In this document: piece by piece, positions 29,192 through 34,784 of the stretch | Layout: each line of letters starts with the position of its first letter | Position numbering within the stretch: the stretch's first letter is position 1 | NCBI GenBank assembly: GCA_018401885.1 | Contig: JAGYKB010000007.1 | Span: 1-64,000, forward strand | Direction of reading: 5' to 3' | Origin: Gammaproteobacteria bacterium | GTDB taxonomy: Bacteria; Pseudomonadota; Gammaproteobacteria; Pseudomonadales; Pseudohongiellaceae | DNA length: 64,000 nucleotides | The notes under the pieces: model-generated | What the model saw: only the letters and a program-made list of their open reading frames with translations | The model's database searches: none | Told to the model about the DNA's origin: nothing | Made by a program: the position numbers and the translations under genes

Positions 29192-29605
29192 TTAGGCGTT
29201 AGTTGGGAAAACCAGCATAAAGGTCGCATTGCACTTTGCCACCAGCTTGCGCGTTTGGTTTTCCCCGAGAGTCATACTGAACACACACATCTCCACTCTG
29301 TACAGACGCTTTCCGGCATGCAGCACTTCGGCCTCGGCTTCGAGCCGATTTCCCATAGGCGGCCTGATAAAGGCGATATTTAGGTCGGTAGTAGCGGAAG
29401 CGACGCCTTCGGGCCGCAAGCTACGCACAGCGACTCCTGCGCACGAATCCGCAAGCGACGTCAGCACACCACCATGCACTCGCCCGCCTGCGTTAAAGTG
29501 GTGAGGCTTAACCGCGATACTGCATAGTGCTTTGCCTTCGCCAAAGGATTCGATTTCAATTCCGAGAAATTCACCAAAGGGGCTCATCACCAAGCTAGTC
29601 GGCAT
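29192..29605 (-). CDS. PaaI-type hotdog-fold thioesterase
   Basis: Protein of 137 residues from ATG 29605 (GTG/ATG further upstream possible at 29629). The hotdog-fold motif [20 protein letters not shown], followed by AGVAV and later [12 protein letters not shown], is that of PaaI/YbgC-like acyl-CoA thioesterases. It would hydrolyse acyl-CoA, substrate unknown. The start lies inside the end of trhO, so the two genes overlap and are coexpressed. Confidence 0.85.
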
Positions 29606-30623
29606 GGGATGTCCTTTTCGCCCGCTCATAGTCGCGCTGCTCTTCTTTAAACTTAAGCTTCTGTGCTTTGCGCTGCCTGATGAGCTGCTCCATCGGTTGC
29701 CCGATATGCGCGTCGCCGCGCGCTTTAGCGAGAGCCATCTGCCTTTCTCGCTCGGCCAAACCCTTCACTTTCTCGCGGGGCTTCTGCGCAGCGCAGTGAT
29801 GACAACTCACCCCTTTCTGATACTCCTCGCGTTGCTTGTCGTCTTCACTAATTGGCATGCGGCAGGCGTGACACTGATCAAACACACCCTGCTCTAGTTT
29901 GTGATTTACGGTAACTCGATTATCGAAAACGAAGCACTCACCGCGCCAGAGCGTCTCTTCCTCGGGCACTTCTTGTAAATAATTGAGAATGCCTCCCTTT
30001 AGGTGATAGACCTCATCGAAACCCTGTTCGCGCAAATAGGCCGTCGACTTCTCGCAGCGAATGCCGCCGGTACAAAACATCGCCACTTTCTTGTGCTTCG
30101 CCGGATCTAAGTTGTTCTTTACATAGTCGGGGAATTCGCGGAAAGAGTCGGTTTCGGGATTGACCGCAGACTCGAAGGTACCGATTTCAACCTCGTATTT
30201 ATTGCGCGTATCCAGCAAAAGCACCTCGGGGTCGCTGATAAGCGCATTCCATTCGCTTGGCTCTACATAGGTGCCAACGATCTTCTTCGGGTCGATGTCC
30301 TCGACACCCATCGTCACAATTTCGCGTTTGAGCTTGACCTTCGTGCGGTAGAAGGGATTTTCCGCCGCGAAGGATTCCTTTGGCGCGAGATCAGCAAACC
30401 GCGCATCTCGCTCAAGAAACGCAATCACAGCATCGACGCCCGCACGCGAACCTGCGATAGTGCCGTTTATCCCCTCGGCGGCGAGCAGCAGTGTGCCTCG
30501 CACATCGTTGTCGAGCATGCACTGTTTTAGTGGCTCGCGCAGGGATTCATATTCAGGGAATGTCGCGAAACGGTATAACGCCGCGACCACAGTGCCTGGC
30601 GTGGCAGAGTTTGGGTTATTCAT
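29595..30623 (-). CDS. trhO: tRNA uridine-34 hydroxylase TrhO (rhodanese domain)
   Basis: Protein of 342 residues. ATG 30623 has AAGGA 7 bases upstream. Family blocks: [20 protein letters not shown] in the N-terminal domain; [15 protein letters not shown] and the active-site loop [20 protein letters not shown] in the rhodanese domain; and a C-terminal cysteine cluster (CHACRMP, SCHHCA) with a basic tail. The TrhO (YceA) family adds the 5-hydroxyl of uridine 34 in tRNA with O2 as oxidant. It overlaps the thioesterase gene downstream. Confidence 0.95.
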
Positions 30624-30733
30624 GATGTGTCCTTTTTGCACTCTGGAGCGTAATTCCAGCGCAAATTAAATTACCTTAATCGCAATTGCTCTCGCTATCG
30701 CGTGGGCCCAGTGTACCAAAACAGCACAACAAA

Positions 30734-30753
30734 TGCCGGCAGGCTTACCGGCA
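30734..30753 (-). terminator. Possible terminator of the sulfurtransferase gene
   Basis: Inverted repeat TGCCGG/CCGGCA with an 8-base loop, followed on the minus strand by a T-rich stretch (TTTGTTGTGCTGTTTT). The tail is interrupted, so efficiency is uncertain. Confidence 0.5.
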
Positions 30754-30790
30754 GACCCTGTCACTCAGCGATTCTCAGAGACCTCTCAAC

Positions 30791-31720
30791 TTAAACGGTC
30801 TCTTTGTCAGGACCCGCAACAACCGGCAGAGCCGGATCCGCCCCCCAGTCTGCCCATGAGCCATCGTAGACAGAAAGATGCGTGTAGCCCGCGAGCGACG
30901 CAGCGAAAGTGACGACACAGGCAGTGAGACCCGAGCCGCAGCTGGTCACCACTCTCTGATTTCGCTGTGCAATGGGGGCCAGCATCAATGCGATCTCGAG
31001 CGCCGACTTCATTTTTTCGCCGTTTAGCACGGTCTGGAAAGGAAAACTCAGTGACCCAGGCATATGACCACCGCGCACGCCCGGGCGAGGCTCCGGAGCC
31101 TCGGCATTAAATCGAGCAGTTGAGCGAGCGTCTAAGACGCGGCAATTCGAATCGGTTAACGCCGTGGCTACTGCAGCGCTATCGACAAACGCGTCCAATC
31201 TGGGGATAGCGACATAATCACCCTCAGTATAGTCGTCGCCCGATGCTTTTTTACCCGCGCGCCATTGCGCACCTCCCACCTCCGTTGGATTGCCGGCGTC
31301 AATCCATGCTCTGAGGCCGCCGTCCAACACGGCGACATTGTCATGCCCCATTGCCTTGAGCATCCACCAGCCGCGCGGACTCGCGTAGACGCCAACATCG
31401 TCGTAAATCACAACAAGTGAATGCGTGTTCAGGCCTAGGCTGCGCACTTCTTTTTCGAAGAGTGCCGCACTCGGCATCATATGCGGAAGGGTGGCGTCGG
31501 GATCGCAGAGACGCGTGTCGAAATCAAAGCGGCGCGCGCCTGGGATGATACGCCAGTCAGCCTCCGGCACGTGGGAATTAAGTGACTCATATCCCGGCAC
31601 GACTGGAGGCGCAGAGGCATCGAACACTACTACCTCGCTTGAGTCCTGAGAAAGCAGAGCCTGCAAATCGGCAACCGATAATAAAGGCTTTAGAGGAGCA
31701 CTAGCGTGTGAGTTCAGCAT
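30791..31720 (-). CDS. Thiosulfate/3-mercaptopyruvate sulfurtransferase
   Basis: Protein of 309 residues with two rhodanese-like domains. The N-terminal one is inactive as usual (VVVFDASAPPVVPGYES); the C-terminal one has RVLDARSTARFNAEAPEPRP, PGVRGGHMPGSLSFPF, and the catalytic loop VTSCGSGLTACVV with the active cysteine. The CGSGLTA loop favours the 3-mercaptopyruvate (SseA) type. It supplies persulfide sulfur. An intergenic hairpin separates it from trhO. Confidence 0.9.
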   Translation of the reverse strand: MLNSHASAPLKPLLSVADLQALLSQDSSEVVVFDASAPPVVPGYESLNSHVPEADWRIIPGARRFDFDTRLCDPDATLPHMMPSAALFEKEVRSLGLNTHSLVVIYDDVGVYASPRGWWMLKAMGHDNVAVLDGGLRAWIDAGNPTEVGGAQWRAGKKASGDDYTEGDYVAIPRLDAFVDSAAVATALTDSNCRVLDARSTARFNAEAPEPRPGVRGGHMPGSLSFPFQTVLNGEKMKSALEIALMLAPIAQRNQRVVTSCGSGLTACVVTFAASLAGYTHLSVYDGSWADWGADPALPVVAGPDKETV

Positions 31721-31766: not shown

Positions 31767-32615
31767 CTAGAGTGCCGCTTTAAACTCGCGCAATTTCGCC
31801 TTTAGGCGAGCACTGTTCTCAGGACCAAGGCGGATAAGCTGTTTGTTCATGTCCGCAAGTTCCTCGAGCCGAGTATCGGCATAAAGATACATCACAGAAG
31901 GCTTAACCAATTGAAAAGGGCCCTCGACTTCGGGTGCACTCAGTACCGCATCAATAGCCTTTCTAAGCGACTGCTCAAATTCGGCGTCACGAAACCCGAT
32001 CTCGGCGTAGGCCTGTTGCAGTAGTGGAGACAGGAGTTTGTAAAGCCCCACGGCCTGATCGGTATCAAGCGCTACAAAGGCGGCGATTGCAGCATCGAAC
32101 CTTTTGTACGACGACGCTTCCATAGTAAACAAACGGCCATCGACGCTGCTCACCTGCATTTCTTCGGTTACCGGTTTATAGGGCAGCGCCGTCTGTGGAT
32201 ATTGTCCGCGTGAAATATTCTCGATCAGCACTACGGTTCTGCGGATAAGTTGCTCGTCGACGAGAAAGCTCAACAGCGACGCGCCGCTCGACAATTCCTT
32301 TAGCTTCTCCGCTACGAAACTGTCGCTATCGTTTAATCGCGGCAGATCGATGGCAGCCTCTATCTCGGGTGCTTCGACCTCCACTACTTCAACCACTTCC
32401 GGCTCCTCTTCGACGGAAGCTGGCGCGGCGGGAACAACAGGGGTTATGCGGGTGGGAACAGGACGCGGCGGAGTGATTTCTACCTCGGCCACAGGAGTCG
32501 GCAAGATAACCGTCGTGGTCCCACTCGGAGCTTCGAAAGCAACAGCAAGATAGACCAGATAAAGGAATGTACATACCGCGATTGCCGCGATGGACCAGAT
32601 TCCCACCTTAGACAT
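31767..32615 (-). CDS. DUF3014 membrane protein
   Basis: Protein of 282 residues starting at ATG 32615. One N-terminal membrane helix (IWSIAAIAVCTFLYLVYLAV), then a proline/valine/glutamate-rich linker (PVPTRITPVVPAAPASVEEE), then the DUF3014 domain beginning at LPRLNDSDSFVAEKLKELSS, with RRTVVLIENISRGQYPQ and SSYKRFDAAIAAF. Function unknown; periplasmic domain tethered to the inner membrane. It is followed 46 bp later by the sulfurtransferase gene on the same strand. Confidence 0.87.
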   Translation of the reverse strand: MSKVGIWSIAAIAVCTFLYLVYLAVAFEAPSGTTTVILPTPVAEVEITPPRPVPTRITPVVPAAPASVEEEPEVVEVVEVEAPEIEAAIDLPRLNDSDSFVAEKLKELSSGASLLSFLVDEQLIRRTVVLIENISRGQYPQTALPYKPVTEEMQVSSVDGRLFTMEASSYKRFDAAIAAFVALDTDQAVGLYKLLSPLLQQAYAEIGFRDAEFEQSLRKAIDAVLSAPEVEGPFQLVKPSVMYLYADTRLEELADMNKQLIRLGPENSARLKAKLREFKAAL

Positions 32616-32730
32616 GATTCGCTCCAAAATGCGTGTTGTCGTATCGATACCGCCTATTGTTGCATATCTAGACCGGCCAACAAATCAGTATCATCCTTAA
32701 AAGGGCCGCTTGAGAGAATTGCAATAAAAA

Positions 32731-32756
32731 AGGCAGACTCCCGAAAGAATCTGCCT
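32731..32756 (-). terminator. Rho-independent terminator of the peroxiredoxin gene
   Basis: Stem AGGCAGA/TCTGCCT with a 12-base loop. On the minus strand it is followed by a run of T (the A-run at 32725-32730). It ends the peroxiredoxin transcript 18 bp after its stop codon. Confidence 0.85.
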
Positions 32757-32774
32757 CTTTTACGCGACCTTTAT

Positions 32775-33317
32775 TTAGAGTTTGGGAAAGCCAAGCTCTT
32801 CCATCGTCCTCGTAAGGTCTTTACCCGCCGTTGCTGGCTTGGTTTGCTTGTCGATCTTTAGGATCGTGCCGTCGATGCCTATGTAGTAGGTCCACCGATT
32901 AGCAAAGCCTGCGCCCATCAGCGCGCCATATTCTTCAACCATGGTCTTCTCGGGGTCAGCAAGAATTGGAAAGCCCGCTTCATGCTCTGCCGCGAAAGCT
33001 GTGTTGTCCTCTAGCGTGTCAACACTCGCCATAAAATATGCAACGTCGAAACTCTGAATTTCTCTAGCACTGTCACGCAGCGCTTTACATTGCATCGTTC
33101 AACCACCGGTGAAAGCTTTCGGGAAAAACGCGATAACGACGGGCTTAACCCCGACGAATTCCGAGAGCGTGTACGTTTTACCGTCGGACGCTTGCAGCGA
33201 AAAGTCAGGCGCTTTATCGCCCTCTTCTAGCGCCGAAGCGAGCTGGCTGCCAAGTGCAGTGAAGGCAACGGTCGCCGACAACGCAATCTTTGCGAGCCTG
33301 TTTAAAAAAGATGACAT
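32775..33317 (-). CDS. Exported peroxiredoxin with in-frame UGA at the catalytic cysteine (candidate selenoprotein)
   Basis: Reading through one TGA (33099-33101) gives a 180-residue protein. ATG 33317 has a full AGGAGG 6 bases upstream. Signal sequence ([19 protein letters not shown]), then [34 protein letters not shown], the UGA at codon 73, [27 protein letters not shown], and [14 protein letters not shown]. Relatives read FPKAFTGGC at this point, the C being the peroxidatic cysteine; C77 could be the resolving partner (U-x3-C). The frame is unchanged on both sides and a SECIS-like hairpin follows. If selenocysteine is inserted, this is a periplasmic peroxidase. A nonsense mutation or base error is the alternative. 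Confidence 0.75.
33066..33084 (-). promoter_or_regulatory. SECIS-like hairpin downstream of the peroxiredoxin UGA
   Basis: Minus-strand AGCGCTG, loop CGTGA, CAGTGCT: seven pairs, one of them G-U. The stem begins 15 nt and the loop 22 nt after the UGA. Bacterial SECIS elements usually have a short apical loop with a G in its first two positions and lie 16-37 nt from the UGA; this one fits, and its loop contains the GU that SelB contacts in the E. coli fdhF element. It lies inside the coding frame, as in bacteria. Confidence 0.65.
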
Positions 33318-33522
33318 AAGTCCTCCTAGTTTAGTCCGGTCAGGACAGAGGATGCCGAGCAACTCCCAGCATCCCCCTTATTGAAGCGCGTCTTGCTCAA
33401 GATTACTACTGCCAGTGAGGGTACTTGAGAAAATGCAACGCACAACTTCCTCTACGCCGGCGCTAGACGAATAGGATCAACCGGTTCATCGCTCGGTGCT
33501 ACTCAGGGCCGCGTTCGAGCAT

Positions 33523-34740
33523 TTAGAATAAGCTGCGCGATCGTGCCTGCCGGAGCATCTGCTGAGTTTCCAGCTCGAGTCGTGCAATGCGCGAATCTAA
33601 TACATCAACCTCGTCTCGATCGAGCAGCGGTGCGCTATCACGGAGCCTCTCGATGCGCTCAATCGCCTCGCGGATTGACCTAACCTGCCGATTGACTGCG
33701 ACTTGCTTAGCGTCGCGCTGTGACTGCCGATACCTTGGGTTTTCGACCTGAATATTCGTGCACTGCTGGACGACCTGACCATTGGCATCTCGCACATTGC
33801 GACAGCGCGAACGGTAAACATACGGGCTTACCGTGCCCGGAAAATCGGTGTAAGGCGTAGACGCAATCGCTCTGATCAACACCATATCGGTCTCTGCCTT
33901 TGAAAAGACGAAATCCAACAACTCTCCTGATTTTTCCTGCCCCTCGGTCTCGAGGGCCACAATGACGGCGCCATAAAACCCAGATAGCTCCTCGGCAGTT
34001 CGCGCGAGTCCCTGGTAGGAGTCGTCGAGCAGGTTCTCACTCATGACGCGAAACCGCCAATCGCCATACTGCCTGGCAGCAGCCAAGAAGCGTCCGTCAG
34101 TTTTCGAGTACAGACGACTTGCGATATGCAAATGGAGACTCTGAAAGTCGTCCGCTTCGGCCCATGCTTTGCTTTTCGTGTTGCTTGCTATCAGCGCCAT
34201 GATGACTGGCAGCTGCTCCTCGCTATAGAGCCCCGTGTTTATTCTGGTAATTTGCAGGGCCTCAGAATACACCTTCGCTGCCCCCTCGAAATCCTCCATC
34301 TCAATCAAATAGGCGCCTAGGTCTGCCTGAACCTCGCGCAATTGATCCGAGTAAACCCCCGAGGAATAGCGAAGCTCCTCGATAAGCGCCTCGCGCCGCG
34401 CAATCTCGCGGCTAATTTCTAGCGAGCGCGCCGCCGCAGCGGCGCTCTCCGCAACACTTTCCTCATTACCCTCCGCAGCACTCTCATCAACACTCTCAGC
34501 TTCGCGGCCGGCGCCCGCGGCTACTGGCTCGGCCTGCTCTTCGCGAATCCCAAGTGAGTCGGGGACGCCGTCGGCGTTCGCATCAGTCAGCAAAGAAGAA
34601 CCATCCTGAATTGACTGCGACAGCGCCACCGAGGGCACAAAGATTATCGCAAACCCTAAAGCCAGAGCAGAGAGAAATAGACGCGCGAATAAACCGTGCC
34701 AACAGGCTGATGCGGCGAGGTGACCACTGTCATGACTCAT
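33523..34740 (-). CDS. Secreted TPR-like protein, relative of the 2027-3592 protein
   Basis: Protein of 405 residues starting at ATG 34740. Signal peptide (FLSALALGFAIIFVPSVALS), then a DANADGVPDSLG segment like a thrombospondin type 3 calcium repeat, then an acidic alanine-rich linker, and TPR-like helices (LGAYLIEMEDFEGAAKVYSE, ALQITRINTG). The order of helices matches the first part of the protein at 2027-3592, but the TonB domain is missing; the C-terminus is a charged coiled-coil-like helix (IREAIERIERLRDSAPLLDR). It follows the iron transporter ATPase gene by 44 bp. Confidence 0.75.
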   Translation of the reverse strand: MSHDSGHLAASACWHGLFARLFLSALALGFAIIFVPSVALSQSIQDGSSLLTDANADGVPDSLGIREEQAEPVAAGAGREAESVDESAAEGNEESVAESAAAAARSLEISREIARREALIEELRYSSGVYSDQLREVQADLGAYLIEMEDFEGAAKVYSEALQITRINTGLYSEEQLPVIMALIASNTKSKAWAEADDFQSLHLHIASRLYSKTDGRFLAAARQYGDWRFRVMSENLLDDSYQGLARTAEELSGFYGAVIVALETEGQEKSGELLDFVFSKAETDMVLIRAIASTPYTDFPGTVSPYVYRSRCRNVRDANGQVVQQCTNIQVENPRYRQSQRDAKQVAVNRQVRSIREAIERIERLRDSAPLLDRDEVDVLDSRIARLELETQQMLRQARSRSLF

Positions 34741-34784
34741 TTTCAGTGCGCGCATTGACTAGAGTCCTTGGCGAGAGCATTAAC

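Follow-up and report, generated by a model that had tools for sequence, protein, structure and literature searches.

A gene predicted to encode a selenoprotein peroxiredoxin of 180 residues, with selenocysteine (Sec) at residue 73, was revealed by frame translation, Pfam and comparison with relatives at positions 33317–32775 of the window (the whole stretch of 64,000 nucleotides that was analyzed). It lies on the minus strand, which the initial annotation had left unstated, as do its two flanking genes and all its elements described below. That annotation had described a peroxiredoxin frame interrupted by a single TGA at codon 73, and this was confirmed: the frame contains one TGA (33101–33099) directly after the residues FPKAFTGG and ends with TAA, and the Pfam AhpC-TSA domain spans the codon (residues 33–153; 99.9 bits, cut-off 26). 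The Redoxin model of Pfam also scored above its threshold. As had been foreseen, ORF calling with translation table 11 splits the gene into two false ORFs of 87 and 106 amino acids, and a gene of this kind is therefore easily missed.

The UGA occupies the peroxidatic position of a PxxxTxxU motif formed by P66, T70 and codon 73 (the motif is defined as in the accessible text of PMC13188914). Four residues further, Cys77 (33087–33089), the sole cysteine of the protein, is the candidate resolving residue of a U-x3-C pair. In an alignment of 41 proteins (the window and 40 of the 80 public loci, L130 being left out) P66, residue 73, Cys77 and R141 were invariant, and T70 was nearly so. The N-terminus begins with basic residues, continues with a hydrophobic segment and closes with AxA at A29, so that residues 1–29 (33231–33317) form a predicted signal peptide. 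By a simple hydropathy rule of thumb that is not SignalP and has no negative control, all 80 loci in which the start is present contain a hydrophobic 12-mer after K/R, and 79 of these 80 also contain an AxA-like end. The peroxiredoxin is probably exported.

An AGGAGG ribosome-binding site, read directly from the sequence, is located 4 nt before the ATG (33322–33327), and downstream of the stop codon lies a terminator-like hairpin with a U-tract (32721–32765; –26.3 kcal/mol, z –6.4). Because of these two elements the gene appears to form a unit of its own. A consensus scan of positions 32600–33620 listed no sigma-70-like promoter, nor did it list the hairpin and U-tract past the stop. The gene is flanked downstream by a conserved gene for a DUF3014 protein (31767–32627), present in 62 of 80 loci, and upstream by a conserved gene for a 410-aa protein without a Pfam family (33523–34755), present in 63 of 80. 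Beyond the DUF3014 gene, on the downstream side of the peroxiredoxin, two rhodanese-domain genes, one of UPF0176 type and one for a two-domain sulfurtransferase, occupy positions 29595–31720 and are found near the peroxiredoxin in 41 and 52 of the 80 loci, respectively. It is a guess that these neighbors are linked to the handling of sulfur or selenium.

Selenocysteine machinery in the genome and in its relatives

The initial annotation had proposed to search the genome for selA, selB, selD and tRNA-Sec (selC), and three of these four genes were found. The tRNA-Sec has the anticodon TCA and scored 67.4 bits (cut-off 47), SelB scored 351.9 bits (cut-off 242.25) and SelD 271.7 bits (cut-off 125). 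SelD contains a CGAK motif, which we take to have the same catalytic role as in Escherichia coli SelD. The fourth gene, selA, was not found by two models in the assembly, which consists of 70 contigs and is scored as 99.63% complete. It should be mentioned that SelD does not stand alone but forms the C-terminal portion of a 751-aa protein (G000:C4:3155–5410, L021), at whose N-terminus lies an NDH-like oxidoreductase domain; the fusion passes the SelD and Nterm_to_SelD models and not the cut-off of the fusion_not_SelD model.

Comparison with the genome of a close relative, G042, in which selC, selB and selA follow each other in this order on one contig, indicates where selA may be located. In our assembly, contig C4 corresponds to G042 as far as selC and terminates 196 bases past this gene, while contig C30 (8,340 bases) matches the selB part and starts about 9.4 kb from the position of selA in G042. 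The 10-kb stretch of G042 with selA and its neighbors had no match in our assembly in a search run without a positive control. An assembly gap is the likely reason why selA was not found, and the gene would be present in the strain.

Alternatively, the strain may have truly lost selA, so that its own peroxiredoxin copy is dead while the gene of the lineage still encodes a selenoprotein. The high completeness score of the assembly from which selA is absent speaks for such a loss, but the fact that the whole 10-kb stretch is unmatched, the positions of the ends of C4 and C30 and the presence of selA in G078, whose peroxiredoxin is 99% identical, speak against it. We consider a true loss very unlikely and an assembly gap the simpler reading.

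The Sec pathway is widespread among the 84 genomes of the genus: selA was found in 76, tRNA-Sec in 71 and SelB above the cut-off in 74, only scores of the latter kind being counted because EF-Tu genes also match the selB search. Among the 73 genomes with the UGA gene, 68 contain selA, and a single one, G019 (85% complete), was found to have neither selA nor selC nor a selB above the cut-off. Three genomes represented by one contig (G024, G056 and G063) each carry selA, selB and selC together with the UGA gene.

We also analyzed carriers of the UGA gene that had been selected as falling outside the genus, although the kinship of most is not given; they represent 16 additional distinct genomes, L118 and G474 counting as one. 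In 13 of these selA was detected; it was absent in L109, L120 and L132. One Sec form, L131, comes from a contig whose title is Candidatus Hydrogenedentota and whose assembly also contains selA; it represents either a transfer or a mis-binned contig. Among eight more distant homologues without a stop, selA was present in the genomes G093 and G129 and was found in none of G100, G114, G130, G132, G166 and G313; the codon was read in G166 and G313 only and encodes Cys in both.

The UGA codon and the downstream hairpin in related loci

In the relatives search (146 genomes), exactly one in-frame TGA and no other stop was present in the peroxiredoxin gene of 73 of the 84 genus genomes. All 73 orthologues lie above E 1e-30, and three are fragments. 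Among the matches listed, to about E 1e-16, the orthologue was not found in the other 11 genomes of this genus, in which many genomes are incomplete, and no Cys form was found in any of the 84. Several stops in the gene of close relatives had been named as a sign against the selenoprotein reading; instead, the same single TGA recurs in them. In a class-wide search the orthologue was found in just five of 369 genomes (E ≤ 1e-30, our genome included), three of them with TGA.

In total, we compared codon 73 in 81 loci, namely our own and 80 of 157 relatives, many of them from the same genomes as the genus count. The codon is TGA in 73 loci, TGC in seven and TGT in one, and nothing else was found; thus, alignment of the homologues, another check proposed at the outset, revealed that only Cys replaces the UGA. 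All 72 Sec forms with a visible end continue in frame to a further stop, which is TAA or TAG in 67 and TGA in five.

These data bear on the possibility that the UGA is a genuine stop, in which case the locus would contain a gene in decay or would encode two small independent proteins. The two ORFs obtained with table 11 are compatible with this explanation. However, the genus copies have a single TGA and no further stop, conservation extends over both halves in a single frame, one domain model reaches across codon 73, the UGA is replaced by Cys only, and every Sec form with a visible end runs on in frame, mostly to TAA or TAG. A genuine stop is very unlikely.

The position of UGA73 among other in-frame TGAs was also considered. 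In the window and 37 kb of other stretches of the same genome, 328 in-frame TGAs are flanked on either side by 25 or more open codons, and UGA73 alone is broadly supported: 108 of 116 spanning matches pass, with a stop or Cys only at this site, against 13 of 40 for the runner-up. This comparison is tilted towards the peroxiredoxin, since most target loci were fetched around it and few genomes cover the rest of the window. With the same coverage, the scan revealed no other selenoprotein with comparable support in the window.

Folding and comparison with the published model revealed a putative bacterial SECIS-like hairpin downstream of the UGA (33066–33084), with a stem of 6–7 bp and a 5-nt loop CGUGA at 33077–33073; the element GCGCUG-CGUGA-CAGUGC corresponds to nucleotides 19–35 after the UGA. 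According to the accessible text describing the bSECIS model, the loop has 3–9 nt with a G in its first two positions, the stem 4–16 bp, the spacing is 16–37 nt and the minimum free energy at most –7.5 (PMC13188914). The hairpin of our gene agrees with this model in its loop of 5 nt, the position of the G within the loop, its stem of 6–7 bp, a spacing of 21 nt between UGA and loop and an energy of –9.5 kcal/mol. Its energy alone is ordinary (z –0.79), and 44 of 200 shuffled sequences fold as well. A longer pairing, UGCAAUG/CGUUGCA, seen in the 63-nt fold of our own gene, was dropped because it is only partly kept in relatives.

The hairpin is encoded by the codons GCG-CUG-CGU-GAC-AGU, which are strongly constrained at synonymous positions. 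Codons 80–82 are CTG, CGT and GAC in all 67 Sec genes counted (67 of the 73 Sec loci, six being too short or containing N), while elsewhere in the same genes these triplets make up 38, 13 and 50% of the codons for their amino acids. Of 38 five-codon windows, those starting at codons 80 and 79 had the lowest synonymous diversity. The folding set comprised 80 of the 81 loci (72 Sec and 8 Cys; one with N was dropped), and the 72 Sec loci correspond to 56 distinct 63-base sequences. Across 31 distinct Sec rows, 95.2% of cells keep the hairpin pairs, as compared with at most 53.8% for slid versions and 22.9% in the eight Cys rows. Judged from these sequences, the predicted hairpin is specific to the UGA forms and absent from the Cys forms. 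Covariation is weak, since there is hardly any variation in the hairpin: 80 of 500 shuffles reach its score, and the version slid by +3 exceeds it. Hence, it is the synonymous freeze that carries the argument for the hairpin.

One might suppose that a suppressor tRNA or an altered code assigns some other amino acid to the UGA. We found no point in support of this explanation, and other suppressor tRNAs were searched for in the window and four short loci only. It is contradicted by the tRNA-Sec with anticodon TCA in the genome, by the replacement of UGA by Cys only, by the restriction of the SECIS-like hairpin to the UGA forms and by the use of TGA as the frame's own end in five of 72 Sec forms, all of which makes it highly improbable. 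Although the window comes from a draft assembly of 70 contigs, the probability of a sequencing or assembly error behind a true TGC or TGT is practically negligible, since the same TGA is present in 73 of 81 loci, nearly all of them in other assemblies and some in one-contig genomes.

We conclude that UGA73 is very probably decoded as Sec, in agreement with the selenoprotein reading of the initial annotation. At the level of sequence, this conclusion is supported by the conserved UGA (73 of 81 loci, with Cys in the other eight), the constrained hairpin, the peroxiredoxin domain with its active-site residues and the selB, selC and selD genes.

Relation to known peroxiredoxins and proposed mechanism

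Sec-containing peroxiredoxins (Sec-Prx) had been thought at the outset to be known from a few bacteria; in fact they form a well-populated family. In the accessible parts of the sources, the family is reported from the Sargasso Sea (PMC1088965) and is represented by 253 sequences in GOS (PMC2398784), by 12 Prx selenoproteins in a survey of 2006 (PMC1794560) and by 91 in 78 organisms in a survey of 2016 (PMC5029168). Therefore, the kind of protein found here is already known. Our gene shares with the TxxU family (PF00578/COG1225) the AhpC-TSA domain, the PxxxTxxU motif with peroxidatic Sec and a bSECIS past the UGA (PMC1088965, PMC2398784, PMC13188914). The same accounts, in their accessible text, do not assign their records to an OM182/Pseudohongiella-like lineage and make no mention of export, of a U-x3-C pair or of Cys orthologues in synteny. 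Those records may well include the very sequences analyzed here.

The model of PrxU (NF040737), a thioredoxin-dependent peroxiredoxin that we take to be the Sec enzyme of Eubacterium acidaminophilum, yielded 36.9 bits against a cut-off of 270. The best NCBIfam match was PrxQ/BCP (NF006960), with 76.9 bits against a cut-off of 140. In PrxQ/BCP the resolving Cys is usually at i+5, whereas our peroxiredoxin has its candidate resolving Cys at i+4 and a predicted signal peptide.

An AlphaFold2 model, built from 41 sequences with Sec substituted by Cys, had a mean pLDDT of 83.9, with lower values over the signal peptide and around residues 61–80, the active site included. The best PDB matches found with Foldseek include Bcp1 of Sulfolobus, in line with the likeness to PrxQ/BCP, and AhpE of Mycobacterium tuberculosis. 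The latter shares the fold and the FPxAFTG motif with our protein; it is titled a 1-Cys peroxiredoxin in PDB, whereas Cys77 is invariant in all 41 aligned sequences of our group.

From these features we infer the following mechanism. SelB would bind the hairpin, whose stem starts 15 nt past the UGA, and deliver Sec-tRNA(Sec) to UGA73. We are less sure of the subsequent steps. The signal peptide would direct export of the product, and the peroxiredoxin would act in the periplasm, where Sec73, aided by P66, T70 and R141, would attack peroxide. Cys77 may then resolve the oxidized selenium as a selenylsulfide, which a thiol partner would reduce; a Sec73–Cys77 bond is a natural guess because Cys77 is the only cysteine of the protein.

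On the evidence of its sequence, the gene is a real selenoprotein gene. Its product belongs to a known family and is probably exported, and the literature searched does not describe Sec-Prx for this lineage. No papers on selenocysteine or selenoproteins in OM182, Pseudohongiella or Pseudohongiellaceae were found in a search that most subscription journals lay outside. What appears new is the host lineage, the OM182/Pseudohongiella-like Pseudomonadales as drawn by record titles, the near-universal retention of Sec-Prx within it and a form that combines predicted export with a U-x3-C pair. Thus, a member of a family frequent in ocean metagenomes is given a genomic home and a host lineage. According to the accessible part of the 2006 survey, formate dehydrogenase was the sole selenoprotein of the Pseudomonadales covered (PMC1794560); the order, as record titles draw it, would now gain another one.

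Cysteine orthologues at the same locus

Cys is encoded at position 73 in eight loci (L110, L111, L113, L114, L116, L117, L119 and L122), and the titles of two of them name Pseudohongiella. All eight contain the 410-aa gene upstream (27–33% identity), and seven the DUF3014 gene downstream, the eighth locus being short. Since they keep the gene order of the genus Sec loci, the Cys and Sec forms can be considered as orthologues with a Sec/Cys exchange. The Cys proteins of these Pseudohongiella-like loci are 60–68% identical to the Sec protein and differ from it in having Cys at residue 73 and lacking the hairpin. The stretch before the active site also differs at position 67, being FPKA in Sec forms and FPAA in the eight syntenic Cys forms.

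The peroxiredoxin tree contained 81 rows (L099, L123, L127 and L204, the last from the same genome as L118, were left out). Holding the 70 core-family Sec rows together as a single clade was not rejected (p-AU 0.459), nor was it when L207 was added (71 rows; p-AU 0.172); the tree is therefore compatible with either direction of the Sec/Cys change. As a tentative scenario, which we regard as possible and rather less than probable, an aquatic and apparently oxygen-exposed lineage keeps the Sec system largely for a periplasmic peroxidase, and the related Pseudohongiella-like group reverted from Sec to Cys at this locus while the machinery was kept. If true, this would be a Sec-to-Cys reversal in a peroxiredoxin; the 2006 survey, in its accessible part, counted five Cys-to-Sec and no Sec-to-Cys conversions (PMC1794560).

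The occurrence of Cys orthologues in synteny, mostly in genomes with selA, also appears new. Seven of the eight genomes encoding the Cys form have retained selA, so that the Sec pathway is probably maintained there by other selenoproteins. With most of the Sec and most of the Cys forms found in genomes that contain selA, these syntenic orthologues are a natural pair for testing the benefit of Sec to such a peroxidase. It should be mentioned that one of the eight Cys loci, L111, is titled Rhodoferax sp. yet has a Cys gene and a gene order of the Pseudohongiella type, so that its label looks wrong.
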